Shown one piece after another: positions 6,683-34,449 of a DNA stretch of 64,000 nucleotides. Under the pieces are notes generated by a model. That model was not told the DNA's origin. It saw only the letters and a program-made list of their open reading frames with translations, and did no database searches. Position 1 is the first letter of the stretch. Each line of letters opens with the position of its first letter. A program made the position numbers and the translations under genes. The DNA comes from Bradyrhizobium guangdongense (GTDB lineage Bacteria > Pseudomonadota > Alphaproteobacteria > Rhizobiales > Xanthobacteraceae), in assembly GCF_006483445.1 (NCBI RefSeq), contig NZ_PPPT01000071.1, positions 1-64,000 on the forward strand, written 5' to 3'.

Positions 6683-7933
6683 ATGTTGAAAGGCAGTTTG
6701 GGACTTATTGCGTTGACCAGCCTGTTTCTGTCAGGCGCGGCAATGGCTCAGGAAAAGATCAAGGTCGGCGTCACCGCGACGCTCGAAGGCACCTACACCG
6801 TGCTCGGCGAGGACGGCATCCGCGGTCACCAGACCGCGCTCAACGTGCTCGGCACCAAGATCGGCGACAAGCAACTCGAATTCGTCATTGCGTCCACCGA
6901 CGCAACGCCGGACTCCGCCGTCCGCGCGGTGCGCAAGCTGATCGAGCAGGACAAGGTGCAGATCCTGCTGTCGCCGCTGTCGGGCGACGAAGGCATCGCG
7001 GTGAAGAACTTTGCGAAGACCCATCCCGAGCTGACCTTCATCAACGCCGCCTCCGGCGCGCAGGAAACGACCTATGTCGACCCTGCCCCGAACTTCTTCC
7101 GCTTCAACATGGACGGCGCGCAGTGGCAGGTCGGCCTCGGCAAATACGCCTATGAAGAGAAGAAGTATCGCAAGATCGCCACCGTCGGCGAAGACTACTC
7201 CTTCATCTACACCCAGGTGTTCGGCCTCGTGCTCGAGTTCTGCGGCGCCGGCGGACAAGTCACGAACCGGCAATGGGTGCCGCTCGGCACCAAGGACTTT
7301 GCCTCGGTCATCGCGGCACTGCCCGACGATGTCGACGCGATCTATCTCGGCCTCGGCGGCGCCGACGCCGTCAACTTCCTCAACCAGTATCAGCAGGCCG
7401 GCGGCAAGGCGCATCTGATGGGTGGCTCGATCATGATCGACCAGACCATCCTGTCCTCCAAGGGCAACGCCAAGAACGCGCTGATCGGAACGCTGGCCGC
7501 GAGCGGCCAAGCCGACACCTGGGAGGATCCGGGCTGGCAGAAGTTCGTGAAGAACTATCAGGACGCCTTCCCGCCGAACAAGCGCTTCCCGAGCCCGTCG
7601 CTGCTCGCCACCAACTATTACGGCTCGACCATGGCGCTGATCCTCGGATTGCGCGCGGTCAATGGCGATCTCAGCGACAATCAATCGAAGTTGAAGGCAG
7701 CGCTGGCCAAGCTCGAGATCGACGCGCCGAACGGCAAGATCAAGCTCGACTCTAACCGCCAGGCGATCGGTACCAACTTCGTCACCGAAGTCGTCGATGA
7801 CGGCAAGGGCGCCCTGTTCTCGAAGGTGGTCAAGGTCATCCCGAACGTGAACCAGACGCTCGGCTACGATCCGGCGGTGTTCGCCAAGATCGGCCTGCCA
7901 AGTCGTACAGTACCGGAATGTAAGAAGTACTGA
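6683..7933 (+). CDS. Branched-chain-type ABC transporter substrate-binding protein
   Basis: Periplasmic receptor of the LivJ/Urt-like type I fold, 416 residues. The ATG at 6683 follows GGGAGGAG and gives a clean signal peptide ending in GAAMAQ (about residue 22); the longer upstream frame has no such features. The mature protein begins EKIKVGVTATLEGTYTVLGE and has the usual two-lobe pattern with VRKLIEQDKVQILLSP. It is the only binding protein near the livHMGF genes, from which the AraC regulator gene separates it. Because the downstream genes encode an oxidative pathway, the ligand is more likely the pathway substrate than an amino acid; this is inferred. Confidence 0.88.
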   Translation: MLKGSLGLIALTSLFLSGAAMAQEKIKVGVTATLEGTYTVLGEDGIRGHQTALNVLGTKIGDKQLEFVIASTDATPDSAVRAVRKLIEQDKVQILLSPLSGDEGIAVKNFAKTHPELTFINAASGAQETTYVDPAPNFFRFNMDGAQWQVGLGKYAYEEKKYRKIATVGEDYSFIYTQVFGLVLEFCGAGGQVTNRQWVPLGTKDFASVIAALPDDVDAIYLGLGGADAVNFLNQYQQAGGKAHLMGGSIMIDQTILSSKGNAKNALIGTLAASGQADTWEDPGWQKFVKNYQDAFPPNKRFPSPSLLATNYYGSTMALILGLRAVNGDLSDNQSKLKAALAKLEIDAPNGKIKLDSNRQAIGTNFVTEVVDDGKGALFSKVVKVIPNVNQTLGYDPAVFAKIGLPSRTVPECKKY

Positions 7934-8058: not shown

Positions 8059-8886
8059 ATGAGCCGGGCGCTCGCCGTCTTCCACGGCCGGTTCGGTCGG
8101 GCGACGGTCTATCAGTTGAACCGCCCTTTCAACATCCACGCGCATCGTGAAGGTCATCTGATCTTCCATGTCGGCGGGATGCCTGCTTGCATCGACGTCA
8201 ACGACGGACGCCATGAGCTGACCGAAGGCTCCGTGGTCGCGGTCAATCCGTGGGAACCGCACAACTTCCTGCCGTCCGACCTCGAAGGCGGCGCGATCTT
8301 CTTCGTGCTCTATGTCAATGCAGAGTGGTTCGCGCCCGACGCGCCCGGCGCCGACCGCCTGCGTTTCGGCCGAACCCAGTTCAAGCGCACCGTTGCGCTC
8401 GACAAGCAAATCAGGCGTACAGCAGCACTCGTGTGCGGCGCGCCCTCGCTCTCCAGCCTCGATTCCGAGCTGCGCCGGCTGATCGACAATTGCTACGACG
8501 AAAGCTGGCAGCAGTCCGAGATCGCCCGCGATCCGCGCACCAGCGGTTCCGTCACCGATTTCCGCGTCCGCAAATGCATCAAGATGATGTCGGAGAGCCC
8601 CGGCGCCGAGATCGAGCTCGACACCATCGCGCGCGAGTCCGGCCTGTCCCGGCCGCATTTCTATCGACTGTTCCGTACCCAGACCGGTGTCACGCCGCAT
8701 CTCTATCTCAACACGCTGATCATGGAACAGGCGCTGGAAGCCCTGGTTGCGAGCGAAGCGCCGATCGCCGATATCGGCTTCGATCTCGGCTTCTCCTCGC
8801 AGAGCGGGTTTACCCGTTTCTTCGCCGCCAATGTCGGCATGGCCCCGACCGATTATCGCCGCGCGGCCAAGGTCTTGCGCGCCTGA
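8059..8886 (+). CDS. AraC-family transcriptional regulator
   Basis: 275 residues. The N-terminal half is an AraC-type cupin ligand domain (about residues 1-110, with HAHREGHLIFHVGG and VNPWEPHNF). The C-terminal part has two helix-turn-helix units (about 175-270), with LDTIARESGLSRPHFYRLF as the first and IADIGFDLGFSSQSGFTRF as the second. The start follows GGGAGGGAAGG. It lies between the binding-protein gene and livH on the same strand and is the natural candidate to activate the large operon downstream in response to the imported compound. Confidence 0.88.
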   Translation: MSRALAVFHGRFGRATVYQLNRPFNIHAHREGHLIFHVGGMPACIDVNDGRHELTEGSVVAVNPWEPHNFLPSDLEGGAIFFVLYVNAEWFAPDAPGADRLRFGRTQFKRTVALDKQIRRTAALVCGAPSLSSLDSELRRLIDNCYDESWQQSEIARDPRTSGSVTDFRVRKCIKMMSESPGAEIELDTIARESGLSRPHFYRLFRTQTGVTPHLYLNTLIMEQALEALVASEAPIADIGFDLGFSSQSGFTRFFAANVGMAPTDYRRAAKVLRA

Positions 8887-8997: not shown

Positions 8998-9078
8998 ATG
9001 GCGAGGTACGCAGCCTGCAAACGGCTGTCCGGCCTGATTGCTGCCTGTCCCCGCGCGCGGGGCGAGGTCAAGCCATGA
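8998..9078 (+). CDS. Possible 26-residue leader peptide coupled to livH
   Basis: A short frame reads MARYACKRLSGLIA... for 26 codons and ends in TGA at 9076-9078, overlapping the livH ATG at 9075 (ATGA). It has a good Shine-Dalgarno sequence (AGGGAGGA, about 9 nt before the ATG). A perfect 14-bp palindrome CCCCGCGCGCGGGG (9049-9062) lies inside it just before livH. It could be a leader peptide that couples translation into livH. Against it, its codons show no special bias, and livH has its own weak site (GAGGT at 9064). Confidence 0.35.
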   Translation: MARYAACKRLSGLIAACPRARGEVKP

Positions 9079-10085
9079 CCCGCTTTGTCGAACGTCATCC
9101 CGTCTGGGCGCTGATCGTCATCGTCGCGATCGCGATCCTGCTCTGGCTGATCTTTGCGGTATGGCCGCCCGGCCTCGAAGAGGCGATCGGCCGCAAGCGC
9201 GTCTTCCTCAATGCCGTCTTCAACGGCATCACGCTCGGCGGGCTCTACTTCCTGGTTGCCAGTGGCTTCACGCTGATCTTCGGCCTGATGCGCAACGTCA
9301 ATCTCGCGCACGGCTCGCTCTATCTGTTCGGCGGCTATATCGGCTACGCCATCAGCGCATCAACCGGCTCCTGGATCCTCTCCTTCATCATCGCCTTCAT
9401 CCTCACTGCGCTGGTCGGCGTGCTGCTGCAGGTGATCGTGTTCCGCCGTATGGAGGGACAGGACCTCCGGCAGACCATGGTGACGATCGGGCTCTCGATC
9501 GTCTTTGCCGATCTGATGTTGTGGGCCTGCGGCGGCGACTTCTACCAGATCCAGACGCCGAGCTGGCTGATCGGCCCGATCGACCTGCCGCTGATCACGG
9601 CGGTGAAGTCCTCCGGCGAACCGGTGTATCTGCGCTATCCGCTGGTGCGGCTCGTGATCTTCCTCGCTTCGGTCGTGATCGGCGTCGCGATGTGGCTCGC
9701 GCTCAACCGCACGCGGATCGGCATGATCATCCGCGCCGGCGTCGACGACCGCGACATTCTCGCTGCGACCGGCGTGCGCATCCAGCTCGTCTTCGTGCTG
9801 GTCTTTGCGCTGGGCGCCGGACTTGCCGGCATCGCCGGCGTCGTCGGCGGCACCTTCCAATCGCTGTCACCGGGCGAAGACATCCGCTTCCTGCTCGCCT
9901 CCCTCGTCGTCGTGATCGTCGGCGGCATGGGCTCGATCCCGGGCGCGGCACTCGGCGCGCTCATCATCGGGCTCGCCGAGCAGCTCGGCTCCGTCTACAT
10001 CCCGACCTACGCCATCGTCGTCACCTTCCTGATCATGGTGCTGGTGCTGGCAGTGCGGCCGCAGGGCCTGTTGGCGAGGCGCTGA
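9075..10085 (+). CDS. livH: Branched-chain-type ABC transporter permease LivH
   Basis: Inner-membrane permease, 336 residues, with about eight hydrophobic segments. The segments NAVFNGITLGGLYFLVASG and GLMRNVNLAHGSLYLFGGY are the hallmark of LivH-type permeases. The EAA-like loop region GVDDRDILAATGVRI and the last helices with GGMGSIPGAALGALIIGL also fit. An extra N-terminal membrane segment (residues 12-34) precedes the core. It is first in the contiguous run livHMG-F and ends 1 nt before livM. With LivM it forms the channel for the substrate delivered by the binding protein at 6683. Confidence 0.92.
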   Translation: MTRFVERHPVWALIVIVAIAILLWLIFAVWPPGLEEAIGRKRVFLNAVFNGITLGGLYFLVASGFTLIFGLMRNVNLAHGSLYLFGGYIGYAISASTGSWILSFIIAFILTALVGVLLQVIVFRRMEGQDLRQTMVTIGLSIVFADLMLWACGGDFYQIQTPSWLIGPIDLPLITAVKSSGEPVYLRYPLVRLVIFLASVVIGVAMWLALNRTRIGMIIRAGVDDRDILAATGVRIQLVFVLVFALGAGLAGIAGVVGGTFQSLSPGEDIRFLLASLVVVIVGGMGSIPGAALGALIIGLAEQLGSVYIPTYAIVVTFLIMVLVLAVRPQGLLARR

Positions 10086-10086
10086 C

Positions 10087-11172
10087 ATGTCCGTGACCCA
10101 CGATGCTCGCGTCCAGCTCCGCGCCGCCACCACGGCGCAAGGCCAAGCCGCGCGCATATGGCCGGAGATCAACCATCCGGCTGCCTGGATCGTCGCCGTC
10201 ATCCTCGTGATCATGCCCCTGATCGCCAACGGCTTCTTCCTGATCGAAATCTTTGCCACGACGATGATCCTCGGGACCATCGCGCTCAGTCTGATGTTCC
10301 TCGCCGGCTATGGCGGCATGGTCAGCCTGATGCAGCTCACGATCGCGGGCTTCTGTGCCTACATGGTCGCGGTCTTCGGCGTCAGCGCCAACACCAATAT
10401 CAGCCTCGGCTGGCCGTGGTGGCTGGCGGTCCCGATGGCACTCGCGCTTGCCACGCTGTTCGGCACGCTCGGCGGCACGCTCGCGGTACGCACCGAGGGC
10501 ATCTACACCATCATGATCACGCTGGCGATCGGCGCGGCCTTCTACTATTTCACCAACCAGAACTGGGCGATCTTCGGTGGCCACACCGGCATCAACACCG
10601 TTGCGACCCCGCATTTCTGGGGCGTCAACTGGCGCTCCGATATCCCCTTCTATTATATCGTGCTCGGGACTGCTGCGCTGTGCTACTTCGCCGTCGCCTA
10701 TATCTCCCGCGCGCCGTTCGGGCTCGCCCTGCAAGGCGTCCGCGACAATCCGCGCCGCATGGCCGCGCTCGGCTTCAACGTCAATGCACATCGGATCGCG
10801 GCCTATGCGGTGGCGTCGTTCATCGCGGGGCTCGCCGGCGTGCTCCAGGTCTGGAACTACCGGCAAATCTCGCCGGGCTCGGTCAGCGTCGGCGCCTGCA
10901 TCGACATTTTGATCATTGCCGTTGTCGGCGGCATCACACGCCCGATCGGCCCCTATATCGGCGCGCTGATCTTCGTGTTGCTGCGCACCTTTGCGCTCGA
11001 TTTCCTGGTCAAGATCGGGCTCGACGGCAACCGCTTCCGGCTCATCATCGGCCTCGGCTTCCTCGCTATCGTGTTCTGGTCGTCGGATGGCGTCATCGGC
11101 CTGTGGCAGCGCTGGCGCCAAGGCAAGCGGCCTACGACGACGCGCCCTGGCGGAGGGCACGGCCATGGATAG
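10087..11172 (+). CDS. livM: Branched-chain-type ABC transporter permease LivM
   Basis: Second permease, 361 residues, with about nine membrane segments. Family segments are LAGYGGMVSLMQLTIAGFCAYMVA-like near residues 75-100, the GLALQGVRDNPRRMAALGFNV loop that docks the ATPase, and GGITRPIGPYIGALIFVLL. It is followed by a short basic tail (WRQGKRPTTTRPGG) and overlaps livG by 8 nt. The product pairs with LivH. Confidence 0.92.
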   Translation: MSVTHDARVQLRAATTAQGQAARIWPEINHPAAWIVAVILVIMPLIANGFFLIEIFATTMILGTIALSLMFLAGYGGMVSLMQLTIAGFCAYMVAVFGVSANTNISLGWPWWLAVPMALALATLFGTLGGTLAVRTEGIYTIMITLAIGAAFYYFTNQNWAIFGGHTGINTVATPHFWGVNWRSDIPFYYIVLGTAALCYFAVAYISRAPFGLALQGVRDNPRRMAALGFNVNAHRIAAYAVASFIAGLAGVLQVWNYRQISPGSVSVGACIDILIIAVVGGITRPIGPYIGALIFVLLRTFALDFLVKIGLDGNRFRLIIGLGFLAIVFWSSDGVIGLWQRWRQGKRPTTTRPGGGHGHG

Positions 11173-11947
11173 CGTCGCGCATCGCCTCTCCGCCGTCGGC
11201 GCCGGCGCCGCGCTGGAGCTTCGCGGTGTCACGCGGCTGTTCGGCGCGCTCGCCGCGTTGACCGACGTCACCATCACGGTACGACCGGGCGAGCGACGCG
11301 CGGTGCTGGGCTCGAACGGCGCCGGCAAGACCACGCTCTTCAACTGCATCACCGGCGACTTCCCGCCCACGTCGGGCACGATCCGCTTCTTCGGCGAGGA
11401 CATCACCCGCTTCCCGCCCTATGAGCGCATTCGCCGCGGCCTGCGCCGCACCTACCAGATTTCTGCGCTGTTCCCCGGCCTCACCGTGCAGGATAACGTC
11501 TACCTCGCCTGCCGCGGTGTCTCGCGCGGACGCTTCTCGTTCCTGCGTCCCGGTCAGAATGACGCGTTGATGCACGCAGCGGACAATCTCGTCCAGGCCG
11601 TGCATCTGTCGGCCGTGAAGGATCAACGGGTCGCTGAGCTTGCCCACGGCCAGCAGCGCCAGCTCGAGATTGCACTGGCGCTCGCCGGTGCACCGCGCTT
11701 CGTGCTGTTCGACGAACCGGCCGCAGGTCTCTCGCCGGCCGAGCGTCTGGAGCTGATCGAGATCCTGACGTCGCTGCCCTCACACATCGGCTACATCATC
11801 ATCGAGCACGACATGGACGTGGCGTTGCGCGTCGTCGAGAGCGTCACGATGATGCACAACGGCCGCATCTTCAAGGAAGGCGTACCGCAGGAGATCCAGT
11901 CCGACCCCGAGGTTCAGGAACTCTATCTCGGAGGCGGCCATGAATGA
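11165..11947 (+). CDS. livG: Branched-chain-type ABC transporter ATPase LivG
   Basis: Cytoplasmic ATPase subunit, 260 residues from the ATG at 11165; the longer frame before it is part of livM. Walker A is GSNGAGKTT (about residues 49-57), the LivG-type Q-loop region is RRTYQISALFPGLTV, the signature is ELAHGQQRQLEIALAL (a usual LivG variant), and Walker B is FVLFDEPAAGL. It overlaps livM by 8 nt and the next gene by 8 nt, so the four transporter genes are tightly coupled. Confidence 0.9.
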   Translation: MDSVAHRLSAVGAGAALELRGVTRLFGALAALTDVTITVRPGERRAVLGSNGAGKTTLFNCITGDFPPTSGTIRFFGEDITRFPPYERIRRGLRRTYQISALFPGLTVQDNVYLACRGVSRGRFSFLRPGQNDALMHAADNLVQAVHLSAVKDQRVAELAHGQQRQLEIALALAGAPRFVLFDEPAAGLSPAERLELIEILTSLPSHIGYIIIEHDMDVALRVVESVTMMHNGRIFKEGVPQEIQSDPEVQELYLGGGHE

Positions 11948-14156
11948 TGTCCGCCGCGGCGCGCCTGCGCTCGAAGTCAGAGGTCTCGACGTCTATTACG
12001 GCCATTCGCACGCGCTGCAGGGCGTTGACCTCACGCTCGAAACCGGCGTGTTCTCCGTGGTCGGACGCAACGGCATGGGCAAGACGACGCTGTGCAAGGC
12101 CATCATGGGTCTCGTCCCCGTGAGCGGCGGTTCGGTGCGCATCCGCGGCGAGGACATCACACGACGTCCGCCGGCACATATTGCTCGCCTCGGCGTCGGC
12201 TACGTGCCGCAGGGCCGCCGGCTCTGGCGCTCGCTCAGCGTCGACGAGCATCTGCAACTTGCGGCCGGCTTGCGCCGCGGCGCCTGGACGGTCGAGCGCA
12301 TCTACGACACGTTCCCCCGGCTCGCCGATCGCAAGGACAATGGCGGCGGCCAGCTCTCCGGCGGCGAGCAACAGATGCTCGCGATTTCGCGCGCGCTGCT
12401 GACCAATCCGCAACTTCTGATCATGGACGAGCCGACCGAAGGCCTGGCGCCCGTCATTGTCGCGCAGGTCGAGGAGATGCTGCTGCGGCTCGGCGAAGAC
12501 GGCGACATGGCCGTGCTCGTCATCGAGCAGAACATTGGCGTCGCCACCGCCGTGTCGCGCAACGTCGCGATCATGGTCAACGGCCGGATCAACCGCATCA
12601 TCGATTCCGTGCGGCTCGCGGCCGACCGTGACTTGCAGCAGCGCCTGCTCGGCGTCGGCATGCATGCGGAGCTCGAAGCGGATGCCGATACGGCGCCGGT
12701 AGGCGCGGCGGCACAGGCCGCGCCTCAGCCGGCACGGCCAGGCGGCCCGATCAAGGTCTACATCTCCAACCCCACACCACCGACACGCTGGTCGCAGCCG
12801 GTGCCGATTGCGCGCATCGAGGCGGCCGCGCGCACGCTCTCGACGCAGATTGCCCGGCTTGACGACACCGCACGACGCAAGCGCGAGCCTGTCACCGCGC
12901 AAACGCAGGGACCGCCGGTCGTTCTCGTCGTAGGCACGCTCGACACCAAGGGCACTGAGCTGCGTTACATCCGCGACATCATCGCGGGGACGGGCCTGCG
13001 GACCAGGCTCGTTGACGTCTCCACCAGCGGAAAACATTCCACCTGCGATGTCTCCGCGCAGGAAATCGCGCTCAACCACGGCCGCGGCGGCTCGGCCGTG
13101 TTCGGCCCCGACCGTGGCGCGGCCGTCACGGCGATGGCGGACGCCTTTGCCAACTGGGTACGACGACAAGGCAATATCGCGGGGGTCATCACGGCTGGCG
13201 GCTCCGGCGCGGCCTCGCTCGCCGCACCTGGCATGCGCGCGCTTCCGATCGGCGTTCCGAAGCTGATCATCTCCTCCGTCGCCTCCGGCGACGTCGGCCC
13301 CTATGTCGGTCCCGCCGACATCACCATGATGTACTCGGTCACGGATGTGCAGGGCCTGAACTCGATCTCGCGTGCAGTGCTGGCGAACGGTGCCAACGCT
13401 CTGGTCGGCATGGTGAAAGCCCGCCTCGATCAGCGCGAGACCGAGGCACGTGCGGCAGGCGCCGCCCTGCCCTCGATCGGCATCACCATGTTCGGCGTCA
13501 CCACGCCGGCCGTGCAGAAAATCGCTGCCGACTTGCGCGACGATTTTGAATGCCTCGTCTTCCACGCCACCGGCGTCGGGGGCCGCTCGATGGAGAAACT
13601 GGTCGACTCCGGCCAGCTCGCCGGCGTCATCGACCTCACCACGACGGAGGTCTGCGATCTCCTGATGGGCGGCGTGTTCCCTGCGACCGAAGACCGTTTT
13701 GGCGCGATCATCCGCAGCCGCATCCCCTATGTCGGTTCGGTCGGCGCGCTGGACATGGTCAATTTCGGCGCGCCCGACACCGTCCCCGAGCGCTATCGCG
13801 GCCGCAAATTCCACGTCCACAATCCGCAGGTCACGTTGATGCGGACGACGGCGGACGAGAATGAGCGGATGGGCCGCTGGATCGGCGAAAAGCTCAACCA
13901 GATGGATGGCCCCGTGCGCTTCTTCCTACCCGAGGGCGGCGTGTCCGCGCTCGATGCGGCAGGCCAATCGTTCTGGGACCCCGAGGCCGATGCGGCGCTG
14001 TTCCGCGCGCTGGAGCGCACGGTGCGGCAGACCAGCAACCGCCAGCTCATCCGCGTCAGAAAGAACATCAACGATCCCGAGTTCACCGCCGCCATTGTCA
14101 GTGCGTTCCGGACCCTGTTCGGCCGCACGGGCTCGCGTCGGAGACTAGCGAGGTGA
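11940..14156 (+). CDS. LivF-type ATPase fused to a Tm-1-like (UPF0261) domain
   Basis: 738 residues in two parts. Residues 1 to about 240 are a complete LivF ATPase: Walker A GRNGMGKTT near 42-50, signature LSGGEQQM near 139, Walker B LLIMDEPTEGL near 161, and a switch His region (VLVIEQNIGVA). An Ala/Pro-rich linker follows to about 320. From 325 to the end is a UPF0261/Tm-1 N-terminal-like domain, starting PPVVLVVGTLDTKGTELRYI, with GGSGAASLAAPGMRALPIGVPK, SVTDVQGLN and VFPATEDRFGAI. Tm-1 domains are known from the tomato virus-resistance protein and from bacterial proteins of unknown function. No stop or frameshift separates the parts. Both parts look intact, so the fusion ties transport energising to the unknown Tm-1 activity. 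Confidence 0.85.
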   Translation: MNDVRRGAPALEVRGLDVYYGHSHALQGVDLTLETGVFSVVGRNGMGKTTLCKAIMGLVPVSGGSVRIRGEDITRRPPAHIARLGVGYVPQGRRLWRSLSVDEHLQLAAGLRRGAWTVERIYDTFPRLADRKDNGGGQLSGGEQQMLAISRALLTNPQLLIMDEPTEGLAPVIVAQVEEMLLRLGEDGDMAVLVIEQNIGVATAVSRNVAIMVNGRINRIIDSVRLAADRDLQQRLLGVGMHAELEADADTAPVGAAAQAAPQPARPGGPIKVYISNPTPPTRWSQPVPIARIEAAARTLSTQIARLDDTARRKREPVTAQTQGPPVVLVVGTLDTKGTELRYIRDIIAGTGLRTRLVDVSTSGKHSTCDVSAQEIALNHGRGGSAVFGPDRGAAVTAMADAFANWVRRQGNIAGVITAGGSGAASLAAPGMRALPIGVPKLIISSVASGDVGPYVGPADITMMYSVTDVQGLNSISRAVLANGANALVGMVKARLDQRETEARAAGAALPSIGITMFGVTTPAVQKIAADLRDDFECLVFHATGVGGRSMEKLVDSGQLAGVIDLTTTEVCDLLMGGVFPATEDRFGAIIRSRIPYVGSVGALDMVNFGAPDTVPERYRGRKFHVHNPQVTLMRTTADENERMGRWIGEKLNQMDGPVRFFLPEGGVSALDAAGQSFWDPEADAALFRALERTVRQTSNRQLIRVRKNINDPEFTAAIVSAFRTLFGRTGSRRRLAR

Positions 14157-14159
14157 CCG

Positions 14160-14993
14160 ATGGCCAGGTTTGAACGCAAGGCGCTTCTGAAGAAGTTTCG
14201 CGACATGGCGCGGCGCGGCGAGCCGATCGTCGGCGGCGGCGCCGGCACCGGACTATCAGCCAAATGCGAGGAGGCCGGCGGCGTCGATCTCATCGTGATC
14301 TACAATTCCGGTCGCTACCGCATGGCCGGTCGCGGCTCGCTTGCGGGCCTGATGCCCTATGGCGACGCCAATGCCATCGTGCTGGAGATGGCCGGTGAAG
14401 TGCTTCCGGTCGTGACCAGGACGCCCGTCCTGGCAGGCGTCAACGGCACCGACCCGTTCCGCGACATGGATGTGTTCCTCGACCAGTTGAAGACGATCGG
14501 CTTTGCCGGCGTGCAGAACTTTCCGACCGTCGGCCTGATCGACGGCATCTTCCGTGCCAATCTCGAAGAGACCGGCATGTCCTATGCGCTCGAGATCGAC
14601 ATGATCGCGAAGGCACATGACAAGGACATGCTGACGACGCCCTACGTGTTCAGCGAGAAGGAAGCGGCCGCGATGGCGATTGCGGGCGCCGACATCATCG
14701 TCTGCCACATGGGGTTGACGACCGGCGGCACGATCGGCGCGCAGACCGCACTCAAGCTGAAGGATTGTCCCGCGCAGATCGATACCTGGGCTTCCGCCGC
14801 GCTCAGCGTCAATCCGGACATCCTTGTGCTGGCCCATGGCGGCCCGATCGCCGATCCCGCGGATGCCGATTTCATCATGAAGAACACAAGTCATTGCCAC
14901 GGCTTCTACGGCGCGTCCTCGATGGAGCGACTGCCCGTGGAGCGGGCGCTGACGGATCAGGTACGTCAATTCAAGGCGATCGGCGCGCGCTGA
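14160..14993 (+). CDS. TIM-barrel 'phosphoenolpyruvate hydrolase family' protein (Tm-1 C-terminal-like)
   Basis: 277 residues, matching the PEP-hydrolase-like TIM-barrel family that in plants and fungi forms the C-terminal half of Tm-1-type proteins and in bacteria is encoded beside UPF0261 genes. Visible segments are [21 protein letters not shown] (split across residues 21-41), [35 protein letters not shown] and [14 protein letters not shown]. The start lies 3 nt after the previous stop, with GAGGTGA as ribosome site. Reaction unknown: the family name comes from a weak PEP mutase-like relation. Its gene neighbour supplies the matching N-terminal half. Confidence 0.82.
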
Positions 14994-17956: not shown

Positions 17957-18394
17957 ATGGCCCGCGTCTACGTCTCCACCGTCGTCAACGCCCGCAACGA
18001 CCGCGTCTGGGCGCGCGTGCGCGACTTCAACGGCCTGCCGAACTGGCACCCGGCGATCGCCGAGAGCCGCATCGAGGGCGGCGAGCCCTCGGACAAGATC
18101 GGCTGCGTCAGGGACTTTCGCCTGCGCAACGGCGACCGCATCCGCGAGAAGCTTTTGGGCCTCTCCGACTACGACATGTTCTGCACCTACTCGATCCTGG
18201 AATCCCCGATGGGTGTCGAGAATTACGTCGCGACCTTGAGGCTCACGCCCGTCACCGACGGCGACCAGACGTTCATGGAGTGGACCGCCGAGTTCGACTG
18301 CGCGCCGGAACGGGAAGCCGAGCTCGTCGGCAATATCGGCGGCGGCGTGTTCCAGGGTGGCTTCGACGCCCTGAAGCGTGTGTTCGGAGGCTGA
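17957..18394 (+). CDS. SRPBCC-fold protein, first of a tandem pair
   Basis: 145 residues of the START/Bet v1-like SRPBCC superfamily (polyketide cyclase/CoxG-like). It begins MARVYVSTVVNARNDRVWAR, a normal first strand and helix of the fold, and has RDFNGLPNWHPAI and SDKIGCVRDFRL, both shared with the next gene. The SRPBCC fold forms a hydrophobic pocket for aromatic or lipid ligands. CoxG of carbon monoxide dehydrogenase operons is related but has a C-terminal membrane helix that is absent here. It sits 9 nt after the flotillin-like gene and just before the hydroxylase genes, so it may bind the substrate or aid enzyme assembly. Confidence 0.78.
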   Translation: MARVYVSTVVNARNDRVWARVRDFNGLPNWHPAIAESRIEGGEPSDKIGCVRDFRLRNGDRIREKLLGLSDYDMFCTYSILESPMGVENYVATLRLTPVTDGDQTFMEWTAEFDCAPEREAELVGNIGGGVFQGGFDALKRVFGG

Positions 18395-18398
18395 TGCC

Positions 18399-18842
18399 GT
18401 GCCGCACATCGTCAAGAGCACGATTTTGGACGCACCGACCGATGCGGTGTGGAACGTGCTGCGCGATTTCAACGGCCACGACCACTGGCATCCGGCGGTC
18501 GCAACCTCGACGATCGAGCGGGCTCAATCGTCAGACAAGATCGGCTGCATCAGGCGCTTCAAGCTCAGGGACGGTGCGGAGCTACGCGAGCAACTTCTGG
18601 CGCTGTCCGACCTCGAACAGTCCTTCAGCTATTGCCTGCTCGATACGCCGGTGCCGATGTTCAACTACGTCGCCCATGTCCGGCTGCTGCCGGTGACCGA
18701 CGGTGACCGCACCTTCTGGCACTGGGAGTCGCGCTTCACCACAAAACCGGAAGACCGCGACCGCATCACCCACATGGTCTCCGAGGACATCTATCAGGCC
18801 GGCTTCGAGGCCATTCGCCGCCATCTGAAGGAGGCCGCATAG
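18399..18842 (+). CDS. SRPBCC-fold protein, second of a tandem pair
   Basis: 147 residues starting with GTG at 18399, which has CGGAGG at 8 nt; an upstream in-frame ATG (18378) lies inside the previous gene with no ribosome site. It is a paralog of the preceding gene: DFNGHDHWHPAV, SSDKIGCIRRFKLRDG and VRLLPVTDGDRTFWHWES align with DFNGLPNWHPAI, PSDKIGCVRDFRLRNG and LRLTPVTDGDQTFMEWTA without large gaps. The pair probably arose by tandem duplication and may form a heterodimer or bind two ligands. Confidence 0.78.
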   Translation: MPHIVKSTILDAPTDAVWNVLRDFNGHDHWHPAVATSTIERAQSSDKIGCIRRFKLRDGAELREQLLALSDLEQSFSYCLLDTPVPMFNYVAHVRLLPVTDGDRTFWHWESRFTTKPEDRDRITHMVSEDIYQAGFEAIRRHLKEAA

Positions 18843-18844
18843 TC

Positions 18845-19663
18845 ATGCCCGTCACGGTAAAGACCTTTGCCAGCTCCAATGAGGCCGCAGCCGCGCTGTC
18901 ATCCGACCGCACTGCCCGCTATCTCGGCGGCGGCACGCTCGTGATGCGGGCGCTGAACGAAGGCGACGTCTCGATTTCGACAGTGGTTCGTGCCAGCGAC
19001 CAGGCGCTGGCCCGGATCGATGCGTCCGGTCCGCGGGTCACGTTGGGAGCCGGCGTAACTTTCGCCAGAATTCTGAGCGAGCGCGAGCTCGCCTTCCTGC
19101 ACGCGCCGGCACGCTCGATCGGCGGACCGGCCGTACGCAACATGGGCACCGTCGGCGGCAATCTCTTTGCGCCAAATCCCTACGGCGACTTCGCCGTGGC
19201 CCTGCTCGCGCTCGATGCCACGGTGGCGGTGCAAGGCGGTTTTGGCTCACGCGACATCGCGATCGAGGAGTTCTTGCAATCGCGCGAGCGACAATCCGGC
19301 ACGCTGGTGCTGTCGGTGTCCTGCACGCGACCGGCCAGCGCGGATGCCTTTCGCTATCGCAAGGTCGCCCGCATCAAGCCGAAGGGCGGCTCGGTCATCA
19401 CGCTGGCCGCACATCTGCCGATCAGCGGCGGGCGCATCGCCGGCGCCCGCATCGCGCTCGGCTCGATGGCGCCGACGCAGATCCGAGCCAAGGCGGCCGA
19501 ACGTGCGCTCGAGGGACGCGCCCTCGATGCGGCAACGATCGCTGCGGCAGCCTCCGCCGTCACCGAGGGAACGTCGCCCTCCGACAATGCGCTGGGCAGC
19601 GCCTGGTATCGCCGCGAGATCGTCGGCGTGCATCTGCGCCGCCTTCTGTCCGGTCAGGAATAG
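18845..19663 (+). CDS. Molybdenum hydroxylase FAD-binding subunit (CoxM/XdhB-like)
   Basis: 272 residues of the PCMH-type FAD subunit of xanthine dehydrogenase/CO dehydrogenase-like enzymes. The two FAD motifs are visible as ARYLGGGTLVM (about residues 24-34) and NMGTVGGNLFAPNPYGD (about 99-115), and the C-terminal CO-dehydrogenase flavoprotein domain has RIALGSMAPTQIRAKAAE. The usual size is 270-290. It is the first of the enzyme genes and passes electrons from the 2Fe-2S subunit to its acceptor. The start is 2 nt after the SRPBCC stop. Confidence 0.9.
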   Translation: MPVTVKTFASSNEAAAALSSDRTARYLGGGTLVMRALNEGDVSISTVVRASDQALARIDASGPRVTLGAGVTFARILSERELAFLHAPARSIGGPAVRNMGTVGGNLFAPNPYGDFAVALLALDATVAVQGGFGSRDIAIEEFLQSRERQSGTLVLSVSCTRPASADAFRYRKVARIKPKGGSVITLAAHLPISGGRIAGARIALGSMAPTQIRAKAAERALEGRALDAATIAAAASAVTEGTSPSDNALGSAWYRREIVGVHLRRLLSGQE

Positions 19664-19669
19664 TCCGTC

Positions 19670-20146
19670 ATGTCAAAAACGCCCCTGCAATTTCGCCACA
19701 ACGGCCGCGACGTCGCGATCTTCGTCGATGGCGGCACCAATCTGCTGGTCGCGCTGCGCGAGCTGATCGGCGACATGACGCCAAAGTTCGGCTGCGGCCA
19801 GGGCGGCTGCGGCACCTGCAGCGTGATGATCGACGGCGAAATCCACCTCTCCTGCCTGACGCTCGCCGAGACCGTCGCCGGCCGTTCGGTCGAGACCCTC
19901 GACGGCATGAAGCAAGGGCCGAACCTGCATCCGCTGCAGCGCGCCTTCGCCGACAACTTTGCCGCCCAGTGCGGCTACTGCACGCCGGGCATGCTGATGG
20001 CCGCCAAGGCGCTGCTCGACCGCAATCCGTCACCGAGTCGTGCTGACATCGTCGAGGCCATCTCCGGCAACATCTGCCGCTGCACCGGCTACGAATCCAT
20101 CATCAACGCCATCCTCGCCGCTTCGGGCGGCCGGGCCAGCGCCTAA
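19670..20146 (+). CDS. Molybdenum hydroxylase [2Fe-2S] subunit (CoxS-like)
   Basis: 158 residues with both iron-sulfur clusters of the family. Cys42, Cys47, Cys50 (CGQGGCGTC) and Cys62 bind the plant-ferredoxin-type cluster. Cys101 and Cys104 (QCGYCTPG) with Cys136 and Cys138 (CRCTGYE) bind the helical-domain cluster near the molybdenum site. Complete and of normal length. It carries electrons between the Mo subunit and the FAD subunit. Confidence 0.93.
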   Translation: MSKTPLQFRHNGRDVAIFVDGGTNLLVALRELIGDMTPKFGCGQGGCGTCSVMIDGEIHLSCLTLAETVAGRSVETLDGMKQGPNLHPLQRAFADNFAAQCGYCTPGMLMAAKALLDRNPSPSRADIVEAISGNICRCTGYESIINAILAASGGRASA

Positions 20147-20157
20147 AGGACGCCGCC

Positions 20158-21747
20158 ATGCTGGAATTGCGCAAGGACATTTTTGCCGACGAGCGCGACG
20201 ATAACCTCAAGGAGATCGGCAAGGGCACGCAGCGCCAGGACATGCTCGGCCACATCACGGGCACGTCGAGCTATTTCAACGACCACAAGCTCCAGGGCAT
20301 GCTGCATCTGAAAGTCGTTCGCTCGACGCATGCACATGCGCGGCTCCGCCGTATCGACACGTCAGAAGCGGAGCGCTCGGCCGGCGTGCGCAGAATCATT
20401 CGCGGCGCCGACGTGCCGGTCAATCTCAACACGCTGCTCAGCCTCATCAACTTCGGCAAGGACGACGAACCGTCGCTGGCCGTGGACAAGGTCCGCTACA
20501 AGGGTGAGCCGATTGTCGCGATCGTTGCCGACAGCGAGCGGGAGGCGTTTGAGGCGATCGCAAAAGTGAAGATCGATTACGAACCTCTGCCGACCGTGTT
20601 CGACGTCGAGGACGCCCTGAAGCCCGGCGCGCCCGTCGTCAACGAGACCTATCCGAAAAACGCCTTCATCTATCACGAGGCTTATGACCACCAGCGCCTG
20701 CGTTTCGGCGATGCCGATGCGGCGCTCGCGACCGCCGATCATGTCCTTGAGCAGCGCTACCAGATGTCGCCGATCGAGCACGCGCCGACCGAGACCAATG
20801 GCGCGATTGCCGCCCCCGACACCAACGGCCGCTACGTCGTCTACACTTCGACGCAGGCGCTGTTCTTCTCGGTCGACACCTGCGCCAAGATCCTGGACGT
20901 GCCCTCCAACACCTTCCACTTCATCGGCGGCACCGTCGGCGGCGGCTTTGGCGGCAAGGTCGACACGCTGACCGAGCCGCTCGCTATTTTGGGCGCGATG
21001 CTGACCGGGCGCCCCGTCCGCTACGTGTTCGGGCGCGAGGAGGAGATGCAATACGGCCCACCGCGCGGCGCCGAGCGCATCTACATCAAGGATGGCGTGA
21101 TGCGCGACGGCCGCATCGTCGCGCGCAAGATCCGGGCATACTTCGACAGCGGCGCCTATACGCGGCTGTCCAGTTATGCCGCCGTAAAATGCGCAGCGCA
21201 CCTGCCAGGCCCCTACACCATCCCCAACGTCTATGGTGACGTCTATTGCGTCTTCACCAACCGTACGCCGGCGACCGCGATGCGCGGTTTTGGCGTCACC
21301 GCGATGGACTTTGCCATCGAGTGCCAGATGGACAAGCTTGCCAATCTCGTCGGCATGGACCCGATGGAGTTCCGCATCCTCAACGCCTATCGCGACGGCG
21401 ACATGAAGGCGCACCGGCGCGAGGCGAAAAACACTGCACTGATCGAGTGCGTGCAGGTTGCGGCCGAAAAGGCCAAATGGCCGATCCGCGACGAGTTCCG
21501 CCGCGCCTCCTCACGCAAGGACGGCGGCGGCAGCCGCGCTGCCATTCCGCCGACGCCGGCGGATTCGCGCGCGCGGCCGGCCGCACCGGCACAGCAGCGC
21601 ACGACCTACGACCGGCTTCCGGCCTCAGTGACCCGCGAACCGCCGCGCGAGCCACCGCCGCCCACGCCGCCAGCTGCCCCGCCGCGACCATCGGCACCCT
21701 CGCACGGTGCGACCCGCTTCTCGTCTGTGTTCGGAAGGAGGCGTTGA
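20158..21747 (+). CDS. Molybdenum hydroxylase Mo-binding subunit, N-terminal half
   Basis: 529 residues covering the first domain (a/b hammerhead, about 20-130) and the first half of the Mo-cofactor domain. It has GGTVGGGFGGKVDTLTEP (cofactor-binding Gly-rich loop) and RTPATAMRGFGVTAMDFAIE (the active-site loop with Arg). The CO dehydrogenase AYXCSFR loop is absent, so the substrate is not CO. After about residue 450 the protein leaves the family fold and ends in some 75 Pro/Ala/Arg-rich residues (REPPREPPPPTPPAAPPRP). The rest of the subunit is encoded by the next gene. Full-length single subunits are about 750-800 residues. Confidence 0.85.
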   Translation: MLELRKDIFADERDDNLKEIGKGTQRQDMLGHITGTSSYFNDHKLQGMLHLKVVRSTHAHARLRRIDTSEAERSAGVRRIIRGADVPVNLNTLLSLINFGKDDEPSLAVDKVRYKGEPIVAIVADSEREAFEAIAKVKIDYEPLPTVFDVEDALKPGAPVVNETYPKNAFIYHEAYDHQRLRFGDADAALATADHVLEQRYQMSPIEHAPTETNGAIAAPDTNGRYVVYTSTQALFFSVDTCAKILDVPSNTFHFIGGTVGGGFGGKVDTLTEPLAILGAMLTGRPVRYVFGREEEMQYGPPRGAERIYIKDGVMRDGRIVARKIRAYFDSGAYTRLSSYAAVKCAAHLPGPYTIPNVYGDVYCVFTNRTPATAMRGFGVTAMDFAIECQMDKLANLVGMDPMEFRILNAYRDGDMKAHRREAKNTALIECVQVAAEKAKWPIRDEFRRASSRKDGGGSRAAIPPTPADSRARPAAPAQQRTTYDRLPASVTREPPREPPPPTPPAAPPRPSAPSHGATRFSSVFGRRR

Positions 21748-21748
21748 C

Positions 21749-22771
21749 ATGACCCGGCATCGCGGACGCGGCATGGCGTCGATCAACTATCCCATCGGCA
21801 TGAATCTCGGCGGCGATCCGAGCCAGGCGCTGGTGCACTCCAACCCCAGCGGCAAGTTCACGGTGGCGCTGTCGTCGATCGACCTCGGACAGGGCATGAA
21901 ATCGGTGACGCGGCAGATCTGCGCGGAGACACTGGGCGTACCTGTCGAAGACGTCTATGTCGACACGGCTGATTCCGACACCGGCCCGCATTGCATGGGC
22001 TCCTTCGCCTCGCGCGGCACCCACCGCGTCGGCAATGCCGTGATGGCCGCGGCGCGCGAGGCCCGCGGCGTGATGATGGAGGCGGCCGCCGAGGAGCTCG
22101 AGGTCAACGCCGCCGATCTCGATACCGACGGCCGCGGCAACATCCACGTCAAGGGCGCGCCGCATCGCTCGATCTCGACCAAGGACGTCGCCATCGCCGC
22201 CCAGTTCAAGCAGGGCAAGACCATCTCCGGCCGCGGCATTTTCCTGGTGCCGCTCTCCAACGTCGATCCTGAGACGGGTGAGATGTCGCCCGCGACCTGT
22301 TACGCCCATGCCTGCCTCGTCGCGGAGGTCGAGGTCGATGACGAGACCGGCGAGGTCGACATGGTTCGGATGGACTCGGCCTACGAGCTCGGCCGCGCGC
22401 TCAATCCGCGGCTCGTCGAGCAGCAGCTCGTCGGCGGCGCCTGGATGGGGATCAGCCACGCGCTCTACGAGACGCCGGAGCCCTACTATCCCGATCCCTC
22501 ACATGGCCCCCGCGACTTCGTCGAATATCTGATGCCCGGTCCGGGTGACATCTGCCCGCACGACATCGCGGTGCTGGAGCGCCCTGCGCCCGATGGTCCG
22601 TTCGGCGCCAAGGGGCCCGGTGAGATGTGCGCCAATCCGGTGCTCCCGGCGGTCGCCAACGCCATCTTCAACGCCGTCGGCGTGCGCATCGACGATCTTC
22701 CGATCACGCCGGAAAAGGTGCTGCGGGCAATCAAGGCTCAGGGCGGCGCACGGCCGCAGGCACGACGCTAG
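21749..22771 (+). CDS. Molybdenum hydroxylase Mo-binding subunit, C-terminal half
   Basis: 340 residues from the ATG at 21749, preceded by GGAAGGAGG. It continues the Mo-cofactor domain where the preceding gene stops: SIDLGQGMKSVTRQICAETL (Gln-containing cofactor loop), DSDTGPHCMGSFASRGTH, and the catalytic-Glu motif GAKGPGEMCANPV near the end. It begins in another frame, 1 nt after the preceding stop, with its own ribosome site, so the division looks stable rather than a recent frameshift. Both halves would have to assemble to bind the cofactor. Confidence 0.85.
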   Translation: MTRHRGRGMASINYPIGMNLGGDPSQALVHSNPSGKFTVALSSIDLGQGMKSVTRQICAETLGVPVEDVYVDTADSDTGPHCMGSFASRGTHRVGNAVMAAAREARGVMMEAAAEELEVNAADLDTDGRGNIHVKGAPHRSISTKDVAIAAQFKQGKTISGRGIFLVPLSNVDPETGEMSPATCYAHACLVAEVEVDDETGEVDMVRMDSAYELGRALNPRLVEQQLVGGAWMGISHALYETPEPYYPDPSHGPRDFVEYLMPGPGDICPHDIAVLERPAPDGPFGAKGPGEMCANPVLPAVANAIFNAVGVRIDDLPITPEKVLRAIKAQGGARPQARR

Positions 22772-22780
22772 AGGATCATC

Positions 22781-23658
<878 letters not shown>

Positions 23659-23662
<4 letters not shown>

Positions 23663-24783
23663 GCACCGAGCCGCAACTGCCACGCGCCGCGCGCGTCTTC
23701 GTCGATTTCGTCGGATTGCTACGCGCCAACGCCTTTGCCGTTGCGCCCGAGCAGACCACCTCGTTTCTGTCCGCCATCGACCTGCTTGGCCCGCGCGACC
23801 TCAACGATATCAGGCAGGCTGCGCTCGCAACTTTGGCGCCGCCGCCGGATCGCCGCGCGACCTTCGACCGTTTGTTCGACCTCCATTTCCGTGGCAGCGA
23901 GGCACTTGAGCGCACCCATGAAGGCGAGGACGACGAGACTGTCCGGCTCCAGGAAGAAGGCCGCGGCGACGAACAGCCCCTGCTCTCTGACGACGCCAAC
24001 GAATCCGGTCTCACCGCGAGCCGCAGCGAAGCTCTGGTCGAACGCCGCTTCGCGCAGCTCTCCACCACCGACGCCCTGCGCCGCCTGACCCGTGAAGCGC
24101 CAAAGCGCCTGCCGCGTCGGCGCGGCCATCGCCGCATGCGGGCGCGCCGCGGTCCCTTCGCCGATCTGCGCCGCACCTTGCGCGACTCCGTGCGCAGCGA
24201 CGGCGAGATTTTGCGGCTCGGGCATTTGAAGCGGCGGCAGCGCCCGCGCAAGGTCCTGCTCCTGATCGACGTCTCCGGCTCCATGAAGAGCCGCACCGAA
24301 GACAACATGAAGCTCGCCCATGCGCTGGTGCAGGCAGCACCCAACGTCGAGGTCTTCACGTTTGGCACGCGGCTCACGCGCGTCACCCGCCCCCTGCGCC
24401 TGAAACGTCGCGAACAGGCCTTGAGCGCGGCAGCGCATCTGGTCAGCGATTGGGATGGCGGCACGCGAATCGGCGATGCGCTGCAGGCGTTCCTCGCCGT
24501 GCCCCGGTTTGGCGGCTATGCGCGCGGCGCGGCCGTGGTCGTCATATCCGACGGCCTTGAGCGCGGCGATCCCGATGCGCTGCGCGATGCGGTCGCAAAA
24601 CTGTCGCGGCGGGCCTGGCGGGTGAGCTGGCTGACGCCGCTTGCGACCGGTCCCGGCTTCCGGCCGCAGACCGAGGCGCTCGTGGCGATCGAGCGGTTCG
24701 TCGACGATCTCGTGGATGGCGGGTCGAGCGCGTCGATCGTCGCGCATGTGCTGGCGCTCGGACGAAGGAGAGCGGCGGCGTGA
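23659..24783 (+). CDS. VWA-domain protein (CoxE-like)
   Basis: 374 residues, start ATG overlapping the MoxR stop by 4 nt. The C-terminal half is a von Willebrand A domain with the metal-site motif DVSGSMKS (about residues 206-213), followed by DGGTRIGDAL and VVISDGLERGD. The N-terminal half is helical, then strongly basic (RLPRRRGHRRMRARRG), as in CoxE proteins. It is the expected partner of the MoxR ATPase just upstream. Confidence 0.87.
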
Positions 24784-25670
24784 CCGATATCGTCGACGGC
24801 CATCACCACATCTGGCGACAGGCGGACCTCCCCTGGCTGACCGGACCGATGCAGCCGCGCATCTTCGGTCCCTATGAGCCGATCCGGCGCGACTATCCGA
24901 TCGAGGAATATCTCGCCGACCTCAAGGGTACCGGTGTCAACCGCTCGGTCTATGTCCAGACCAACTGGGCCAATGACCGTTTTGAGGACGAGGCGGCGTG
25001 GGTGCAAAAGACCGCGGACGAGAACGGCTGGCCCCATGCGATCGTCGCCTATGCCAATTTCGCCGCCGAGGACGTGCGCCCGCAGCTCGATCGCCTCAGG
25101 CGCTATCCGCTGGTGCGCGGCGTGCGCATGCAATTGCACTGGCATGAGAACCCGCTCTATCGCTTCGCCGCCCGGCCCGACCTTTGCGTCGATCCCACCA
25201 TCCGCCGCAACGTCGCGCGGCTCGCCGACTATGGCTGGAGCTTTGATCTCCAGGTCTTCACCCCGCAGATGCCTGATGCCGCCCATCTCGCCGAGTCCTG
25301 CCCCGATGTGACGTTCATCCTCCAGCACGCGGGCATGCTGGAAGACCAGTCGCCTGCGGGTCGCGCGGCATGGCGATCCGGCATGGCGCGGCTCGCCACC
25401 TGTCCGAACGTCTATTCAAAGCTTTCGGGTCTCGGCACCTTCATCCACCGCAACGATCCCGCGCATATCGCCTCCGTCGTCACCGACACCGTGGCGATCT
25501 TCGGCGCGGAACGCTGTCTGTTCGGCTCCAACTTTCCGATCGAGAAATTGTGGACCAGCTACCGCGAGCTCATCGACGCATTCCGTACCGCCGCAGCATC
25601 ACTGAGTGAAGCGCAACGCGACGCCATATTCAGGACAACCGCGACACGCGTCTACCGGATCGTCCCGTAG
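24780..25670 (+). CDS. Amidohydrolase-2 family metal-dependent hydrolase
   Basis: 296 residues, GTG start overlapping the VWA stop (GTGA). TIM-barrel hydrolase of the amidohydrolase-2/COG3618 type, with the metal motif DGHHHIWR (about residues 6-13), VRGVRMQLHWHENP, FILQHAGMLED (His) and FGSNFPIEKLW. The last motif has Asn where many relatives have the catalytic Asp (GSDWP), a variant also common in this family. Relatives open lactones such as 2-pyrone-4,6-dicarboxylate, so hydrolysis of a ring product of the hydroxylase is plausible but inferred. Confidence 0.8.
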   Translation: MTDIVDGHHHIWRQADLPWLTGPMQPRIFGPYEPIRRDYPIEEYLADLKGTGVNRSVYVQTNWANDRFEDEAAWVQKTADENGWPHAIVAYANFAAEDVRPQLDRLRRYPLVRGVRMQLHWHENPLYRFAARPDLCVDPTIRRNVARLADYGWSFDLQVFTPQMPDAAHLAESCPDVTFILQHAGMLEDQSPAGRAAWRSGMARLATCPNVYSKLSGLGTFIHRNDPAHIASVVTDTVAIFGAERCLFGSNFPIEKLWTSYRELIDAFRTAAASLSEAQRDAIFRTTATRVYRIVP

Positions 25671-25707
25671 GCGCAAGCAACAGAACAAGGACAGGGAGGG
25701 CAAAGGA

Positions 25708-26556: not shown

Positions 26557-26576
26557 CGTGACTTGAGGATCGGCCG

Positions 26577-28157: not shown

Positions 28158-28163
28158 TGCGCG

Positions 28164-34361: not shown

Positions 34362-34449
34362 CGACTGCGACGGTAACTCCGGATTTGCCCTGCCCGCGGC
34401 CTCACCCAATCATGGCAACCACAGCACATCCAACCGAAAGAGGATGAGA

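Follow-up and report, generated by a model that had tools for sequence, protein, structure and literature searches.

A LivF-type importer ATPase fused to a UPF0261 (Tm-1 N-terminal) domain in Bradyrhizobium guangdongense, and a candidate role as a cargo kinase

The window analysed here, a stretch of 64,000 nucleotides from Bradyrhizobium guangdongense (contig NZ_PPPT01000071.1), contains a single ATG-started, stop-free frame of 738 amino acids that joins two complete proteins. A LivF ATPase of an ATP-binding cassette (ABC) importer is followed by a linker of approximately 80 residues and by a UPF0261 protein, which corresponds to the N-terminal domain of tomato Tm-1 (Table 1). An earlier reading of the same DNA, made from the sequence only, had described this joint frame, and both the frame and its Pfam domains confirm it. 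The fusion is kept across many families. We cautiously favour the interpretation that the protein serves as LivF in an ABC importer and bears a C-terminal, flexibly tethered small-molecule kinase of the UPF0261 family, which would couple import with phosphorylation of the cargo.

The fused frame and its distribution

The Pfam profile ABC_tran matches residues 26–166 of the fusion (E 2.3e-27), and the N-terminal and C-terminal UPF0261 domains match residues 327–495 (E 4.2e-59) and 511–726 (E 1.1e-92), respectively. Because both UPF0261 domains are matched completely (positions 2–174 of 176 in PF06792 and 2–217 of 218 in PF23189), the fused part is the whole Tm-1 N-terminal region of about 400 residues and no fragment. 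It also scores 594 bits with NCBIfam NF002673, above the cut-off of 520. The Walker A, signature and Walker B motifs of the ATPase (G42–K48, LSGGEQQM at 139–146 and DEPTEGLAP at 163–171) are invariant in all 47 aligned fusions. A cruder pattern count over 125 fusions found the signature and Walker B in all of them, Walker A in 115 and the Q-loop in 117. The NCBIfam equivalogs remained below their cut-offs on the LivF domain (222 versus 285.8 bits for UrtE, the best of the Urt/Liv models, and 141 versus 441 for LivF). An AlphaFold model of the full fusion has two confident domains and low-confidence linker stretches at 240–279 and 297–321, where the predicted local distance difference test (pLDDT) is below 50. 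Two public records call the fusion an "ABC transporter permease" (L033:16007-18169 and L034:15950-18202); no permease domain was found by Pfam in the fusion of the window. PADLOC gave no match for the fusion and barrel proteins. The genome of the window holds one UPF0261 match and one match to PF09370, the family of the barrel encoded next to the fusion.

The domain order was sought across genomes, as the sequence-only reading had suggested, and the same fusion was recovered in two samples. The order sample consisted of 297 genomes, 108 of them with UPF0261, from which 50 loci with long frames were taken for inspection; 48 of these, from 48 different genomes, are true LivF-UPF0261 fusions, and the other two are not fused. 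Counting the window and genome G114, the fusion is present in at least 50 of the 297 order genomes, a number that leaves out G024 and G120 (frames of 644 and 647 amino acids) and several weak or partial matches (frames of 588–628 amino acids). The named loci were the best 80 of at least 593 candidate stretches, a sample that leans to close relatives, and 74 of them are fused. Their labels are mostly Alphaproteobacteria with a few Gammaproteobacteria or Burkholderiales, and a Variovorax plasmid gene is also a fusion. The best 21 named loci are 84–90% identical to the window, 20 being labelled Bradyrhizobium and one Frankia. Among the six named loci scored as unfused, two (L172 and L187) really have separate genes, and two (L140 and L185) are truncated, with a contig end lying within the linker or downstream of it. 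In the remaining two, L121 and L178, the parts lie in different frames, reflecting either a sequencing error or a recent break between LivF and UPF0261.

A UPF0261 tree of 77 rows, 52 of them fused, can be explained by two label changes (two separate fusions) or by three (a single fusion followed by two losses); part of this count depends on the unfused L106, whose position on the tree is weak. LivF and UPF0261 are separate but adjacent, in the same gene order, in L090, L091, L094 and Thermomicrobium roseum (L035). Because such unfused loci exist, the fusion appears to have joined two genes of one existing transporter operon, and judging from their gene order these four loci represent the pre-fusion state. 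In Haloarcula pelagica, Liv-type permease and ATPase genes lie near separate barrel and UPF0261 genes.

The linker measures 84–160 amino acids among the fusions measured, and its sequence is mostly variable. Nevertheless, of 125 linkers in related fusions, 124 could be parsed, and each of these contains a [TN]RW motif, compared with an expectation of about 1.1 after shuffling the linker letters, a contrast that is inflated by relatedness. R283 and W284 are conserved without exception in the 47 aligned fusions. The motif was not found in the 1.2 kb upstream of UPF0261 in the unfused L095, L102 and L106, which lie near or among the fusions on the tree. The AlphaFold blocks covering residues 281–300 have pLDDT values of 52 and 55 and place the TRW motif on neither domain with confidence. 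Therefore, we make no docking claim for it here, and the role suggested below is conditional.

A flotillin gene like that of the window accompanies the fusion. It occurs in 44 of the 48 fused order loci (44 of 46 without the two that are cut by contig ends) and in 68 of the 74 named fused loci, where five of the six loci without it are cut by contig ends. Flotillin was found in none of the 20 unfused order loci L088–L107, the two loci L086 and L087, the three unfused plasmid loci L035–L037 or the two really separate named loci. It is present in the two loci with a frame break and in the two cut at the linker.

The UPF0261 domain and the PF09370 barrel

The model of the UPF0261 domain (pLDDT 89) superimposes on Tm-1 (3wrw) with a Z score of 44.6 over 383 residues (root mean square deviation, rmsd, 2.2) and on Saro_1862 of Novosphingobium aromaticivorans (PDB 9mpy, with acetovanillone bound) with a Z score of 30.9 over 386 residues (rmsd 7.1). 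In sequence, it matches the Tm-1 N domain with an E value of 1e-96 and Saro_1862 with 7e-55. Fold neighbours beyond the UPF0261 entries reach Z scores of 10.7 or less, are mostly periplasmic-binding and cutinase-like proteins, and were not used. Tomato Tm-1 binds ATP.

The catabolism of acetovanillone is described, in the excerpted text of PMC9618137, as phosphorylation, biotin-dependent carboxylation and dephosphorylation, with the genes in the order kinase, carboxylase and phosphatase. In N. aromaticivorans, it begins with a single-component kinase, MarK, according to the sections available of PMC13101465. Plasmid-borne relatives that are 53–67% identical to Saro_1862 lie directly before biotin-carboxylase genes and a haloacid dehalogenase (HAD) phosphatase in Sphingomonas bisphenolicum, Sphingobium yanoikuyae and Pseudomonas putida (Table 1). 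At least two of these hosts are presumably bisphenol A degraders. Because the S. bisphenolicum and S. yanoikuyae records carry an identical protein, the three plasmids amount to two independent cases at most. The neighbourhood of Saro_1862 itself was sought in the family of genome G668, where the matches listed had only 30–39% identity. Because of the fold and ligand of Saro_1862 and the presence of homologues in the kinase slot, UPF0261 is likely a family of small-molecule kinases.

The gene after the fusion, which had been read from the sequence as the PEP-hydrolase-like barrel resembling the C-terminal part of Tm-1, indeed matches PEP_hydrolase (PF09370) over positions 2–267 of 267 (E 2.1e-130, 434 bits) and aligns with 2p10 over residues 5–274 (E 2.9e-120). 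The proposal that the barrel stands next door holds for 42 of the 48 fused order loci, where it lies within approximately 1 kb downstream, and fails for the other six and for six named Mesorhizobium loci, in which it is missing from the operon. An obligatory three-part unit with an adjacent barrel was rejected on these grounds. When ten genomes without an adjacent barrel were searched, eight had it elsewhere and two (G157 and G277) had none.

Across the order sample, 95 of the 297 genomes hold both UPF0261 and PF09370, 13 hold UPF0261 alone and one holds PF09370 alone (Fisher p 5e-62, with no correction for relatedness). Among the 13 genomes with UPF0261 alone, ten have matches that are weak, partial or more distant, with 171 bits at most; the other three are G114 (71% complete), G157 (93%) and G277 (100%). 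We take COG5441 and COG5564 to be UPF0261 and the barrel. In the portion available of PMC8963296, this pair is ranked third in fungi. The sequence-only reading spoke of an unknown enzyme made of both Tm-1 parts: the parts do keep company, and the enzyme is not wholly unknown, with a relative that binds acetovanillone and homologues in a kinase slot. On a tree of 33 rows, a single branch (95/95) separates 17 barrel-partnered rows from nine rows of barrel-less genomes. Plant Tm-1 lies on the barrel-partnered side, and Saro_1862, a long branch of unsure place, lies on the other. Because the window domain groups with Tm-1 and the barrel-bearing rows, we describe it as one that may work like MarK, not as MarK.

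To compare the UPF0261 domains residue by residue, we used 79 near-invariant positions (29 in the N domain and 50 in the C domain), which were set on 69 rows with six barrel-less fusions left out. H542, E570 and D573 of the fusion are among its invariant residues. When each of the 69 rows was left out in turn, none differed at more than 4 of about 80 residues, and 65 of 82 rows have no change at the 79 residues, which were chosen as invariant. The fused UPF0261 domain of G277 has lost 25 of the 79, of which 12 are common to Saro_1862. The C domain accounts for 23 of the losses (of 50 positions) and the N domain for 2 (of 29). Four order fusions with the barrel elsewhere in the genome have 0–1 residues changed, and the six Mesorhizobium fusion rows have none; four of these Mesorhizobium genomes were searched, and all four have the barrel. 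The decay in G277 is suggestive of a kinase-barrel unit, as one case and no proof.

PF09370 is also found in regulators. It is combined with Sigma54_activat and HTH_8 beside UPF0261 operons (L094:16187-18040 and L090:16264-18186) and with HTH_8 in L153:115-1719, as if the barrel also sensed the compound of the pathway. Separately, L061 (7770-8444), L067 and L073 have, close to the fusion, a triosephosphate isomerase (TIM) barrel of the phosphoribosylanthranilate isomerase (PRAI) type. A triple fusion was considered for L061, whose frame has 999 amino acids, and was rejected: PF09370 is missing there, and the PRAI-type barrel comes next instead.

The operon around the fusion

All genes from the substrate-binding protein to the flavodoxin-fold reductase lie on one strand (Table 1). 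The gene order is kept, with AraC and/or molybdenum genes inside the stretches of DNA covered, in 37 of the 48 fused order loci and 57 of the 74 named fused loci, under a counting rule that also takes in L186, whose gene order is of the second type. The remaining 11 and 17 loci are of type II or other, or are cut by contig ends. The order in type II and other loci is mostly LivH, LivM, substrate-binding protein, LivG, fusion, barrel, flotillin and SRPBCC. In L153, a type II locus, the second SRPBCC is fused to a protein like NADPH:quinone reductase, and genes for FAH, an alpha/beta hydrolase and an amidohydrolase follow. Type II loci gave NCBIfam matches below the cut-offs to enol-lactonase-like, FAH, Xaa-Pro-dipeptidase-like amidohydrolase and NADPH:quinone reductase-like proteins. 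The genes of these operons suggest an aromatic or heterocyclic compound.

The molybdenum subunit is encoded by two overlapping frames in all 77 loci that have both parts, and because of this consistency we regard the split as real. A split molybdenum subunit is also known from a clostridial nicotinate dehydrogenase. A reading of this enzyme as carbon monoxide dehydrogenase was rejected: AYxCSFR, the active-site motif of the aerobic enzyme, is absent from 20158-21747. Two further proteins of the window combine domains. A gluconolactonase-like (SGL) domain is joined to an isochorismatase domain at 26577-28157, and at 34444-35871 an NMT1/THI5-like binding protein has a NosL-like C-terminus (23.8 bits, cut-off 24), an unusual pairing.

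Table 1. Positions of the fusion, its parts and the operon genes in the window, and of UPF0261 genes in plasmid operons
Feature	Positions	Strand	Basis or remark
LivF-UPF0261 fusion, 738 aa	11940..14156	+	Frame and Pfam
LivF-type ABC ATPase domain, residues 1-239	11940..12656	+	Pfam ABC_tran
Flexible linker, residues 240-321	12657..12902	+	AlphaFold pLDDT
Conserved TRW motif in linker, residues 282-284	12783..12791	+	Linker comparison
UPF0261 N-terminal domain; DTK motif at 335-337	12918..13424	+	Pfam, fold match
UPF0261 C-terminal domain	13470..14117	+	PF23189, E 1.1e-92
Substrate-binding protein (Peripla_BP_6), start set at internal ATG	6683..7933	+	Pfam
AraC-family regulator	8059..8886	+	Pfam
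LivH-type permease	9075..10085	+	Pfam
LivM-type permease	10087..11172	+	Pfam
LivG-type ATPase	11162..11947	+	Pfam
PEP_hydrolase-like TIM barrel (Tm-1 C-terminal type), 277 aa	14160..14993	+	PF09370, 2p10
Flotillin (SPFH and Flot), ~975 aa	15020..17947	+	Band_7, Flot
SRPBCC protein 1	17957..18394	+	Polyketide_cyc2
SRPBCC protein 2	18378..18842	+	Polyketide_cyc2
Molybdenum hydroxylase FAD and 2Fe-2S subunits, two genes	18845..20146	+	
Molybdenum subunit in two frames (20158-21747, 21707-22771)	20158..22771	+	
MoxR-type AAA ATPase and CoxE-type VWA protein	22781..24783	+	
Amidohydrolase, metallo-beta-lactamase-fold hydrolase, SGL-isochorismatase fusion, flavodoxin-fold reductase	24780..28790	+	
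UPF0261 genes in kinase position, plasmid operons	L203:8989-14374, L204:8986-14468, L205:4936-10321		L203 and L205 protein identical

Proposed mechanism, alternatives and known systems

In the mechanism that we propose, the importer (substrate-binding protein, LivH, LivM, LivG and LivF) would carry a small hydroxylated compound across the membrane, at whose inner face the tethered kinase would phosphorylate it with ATP, which would trap the compound in the cell. Cargo and kinase substrate would thus be the same molecule. The PF09370 barrel would work with the kinase or on the phosphorylated product, the molybdenum hydroxylase and the hydrolases of the operon would degrade the compound further, and the flotillin encoded beside the fused gene may hold the parts at the membrane. 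The idea, put forward from the sequence, that uptake is coupled to a first reaction on the substrate fits this scheme, in which that reaction is probably phosphorylation. A more elaborate version, in which the importer phosphorylates its own cargo, the [TN]RW motif docks a partner, and flotillin brings the importer, the kinase, the barrel and the molybdenum hydroxylase together in a membrane complex for import and degradation, is offered tentatively and may well be wrong.

If the proposal is true, an ATP-driven importer with a built-in kinase would be a bacterial, ABC-based counterpart of group translocation. The long-uncharacterised UPF0261/Tm-1 domain, which the available part of Yang et al. 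2016 (PMC5028733) reports from almost every sequenced land plant, would be pointed to small-molecule kinase chemistry with a PF09370 partner and could be assayed directly. Both families, and fusions as such, are of known kinds; a search of the open-access literature found no description of a LivF-UPF0261 fusion or of an importer ATPase joined to a probable cargo kinase, and this combination may be undescribed.

Several observations weigh against the kinase interpretation. The window domain shares approximately 30% identity with Saro_1862 and is placed on the opposite side of the tree, with plant Tm-1, so a kinase activity of the window member would be an extrapolation across that distance. Saro_1862 is probably MarK, an assignment of our own. 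Genomes that hold only the other kind of UPF0261 are without the barrel in 12 of 12 cases (nine of them placed on the tree), and because of this the chemistry of the two kinds may not be the same. In G277, the operon, the ABC motifs and the TRW motif are retained around the decayed UPF0261 domain; because the operon is kept in this state, the reaction is not indispensable in that lineage. The UPF0261 row of G277 is also a long branch overall, and part of its residue loss may for this reason be general fast change. In G157 (410 contigs), no barrel was found, yet all 79 residues are kept. In L146 (7762-10275), whose assembly is labelled Gammaproteobacteria, no permease, barrel or flotillin was found within 9 kb of the fusion, and the one barrel of the genome is about 2.4 Mb away. 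Finally, the flotillin link has one or two origins, and its rows are not independent.

Among the alternatives, the one that survives best is that UPF0261 and the barrel form another ATP-dependent enzyme, such as a ligase, lyase or isomerase, still tied to import. The partner family is named after a hydrolase, the barrel-bound kind of UPF0261 may have moved to other chemistry, as the 12 barrel-less genomes with the other kind would allow, and neighbouring genes suggest sugars at some other UPF0261 loci (Gfo/Idh with cupin at L036, a xylose dehydrogenase at L206). However, 52 of the 79 near-invariant residues are shared with Saro_1862 and are common to both kinds, and we regard this alternative as unlikely. 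It is improbable that the fused domain is instead a sensor or regulatory domain that restrains import upon binding ATP and a metabolite, without acting on the cargo. The use of PF09370 as a sensor-like domain in regulators near related operons (L094, L090 and L153) fits such a role, as does the G277 frame, which has stayed open after the loss of its invariant residues, as a structural or regulatory part might. In contrast, the residues are otherwise nearly frozen and largely shared with a stand-alone protein, and UPF0261 homologues fill the enzyme slot in the plasmid operons.

The fusion could also be a neutral route to equal amounts of two operon proteins, with ATPase and enzyme acting independently. 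Fusing would need little where both parts are already adjacent in unfused operons, and the long, mostly variable linker is consistent with independence, but the retention of the fusion across many families, the invariant RW in that linker and the flotillin gene that accompanies the fusion make this quite improbable. A sequencing or assembly artefact that deleted a stop between two genes, to which the broken frames of L121 and L178 might point, has a negligible probability and was rejected, since the fusion is present in 48 of 50 order loci and in 74 of 80 named loci; a frameshift or stop near 12650-12900, which the sequence-only reading had named as able to separate the parts, is excluded as a general explanation by the same counts.

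The tethered-kinase interpretation can be compared with several known systems. Like plant Tm-1 and Tm-1-like proteins, the window has both domains, and its UPF0261 part matches the Tm-1 N domain; however, UPF0261 is joined to the barrel in plants and to an ABC ATPase in the window, where the barrel is separate, and the likeness implies no antiviral role. The two domains of Tm-1 co-evolve, as stated in the same portion of Yang et al. 2016 (PMC5028733). Saro_1862 shares the two-domain UPF0261 family and fold but is a stand-alone protein, unlike the fused domain of the window. The phenylphosphate synthase family is not known to be related to UPF0261. The hydroxyphenylethanone kinases HpeHI and AcvAB have the role proposed here, in that the first catabolic step is a phosphorylation, according to excerpts of PMC9618137 and PMC13101465. 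HpeHI is a two-component enzyme, described as homologous to phenylphosphate synthase, and the excerpted text of these papers mentions no tie to a transporter, in contrast to the window fusion.

The window operon has the full five components of the LivFGHMJ and UrtABCDE importers, and its best NCBIfam matches are to Urt and Liv proteins, but these matches are below the curated cut-offs, and the window LivF bears an extra 500 residues. Group translocation by the phosphotransferase system (PTS) and vectorial acylation both tie uptake to chemical trapping of the cargo, as the window importer would if our interpretation holds. In the system proposed for the window, by comparison, a single subunit of the importer would both drive uptake with ATP and carry out the phosphorylation.

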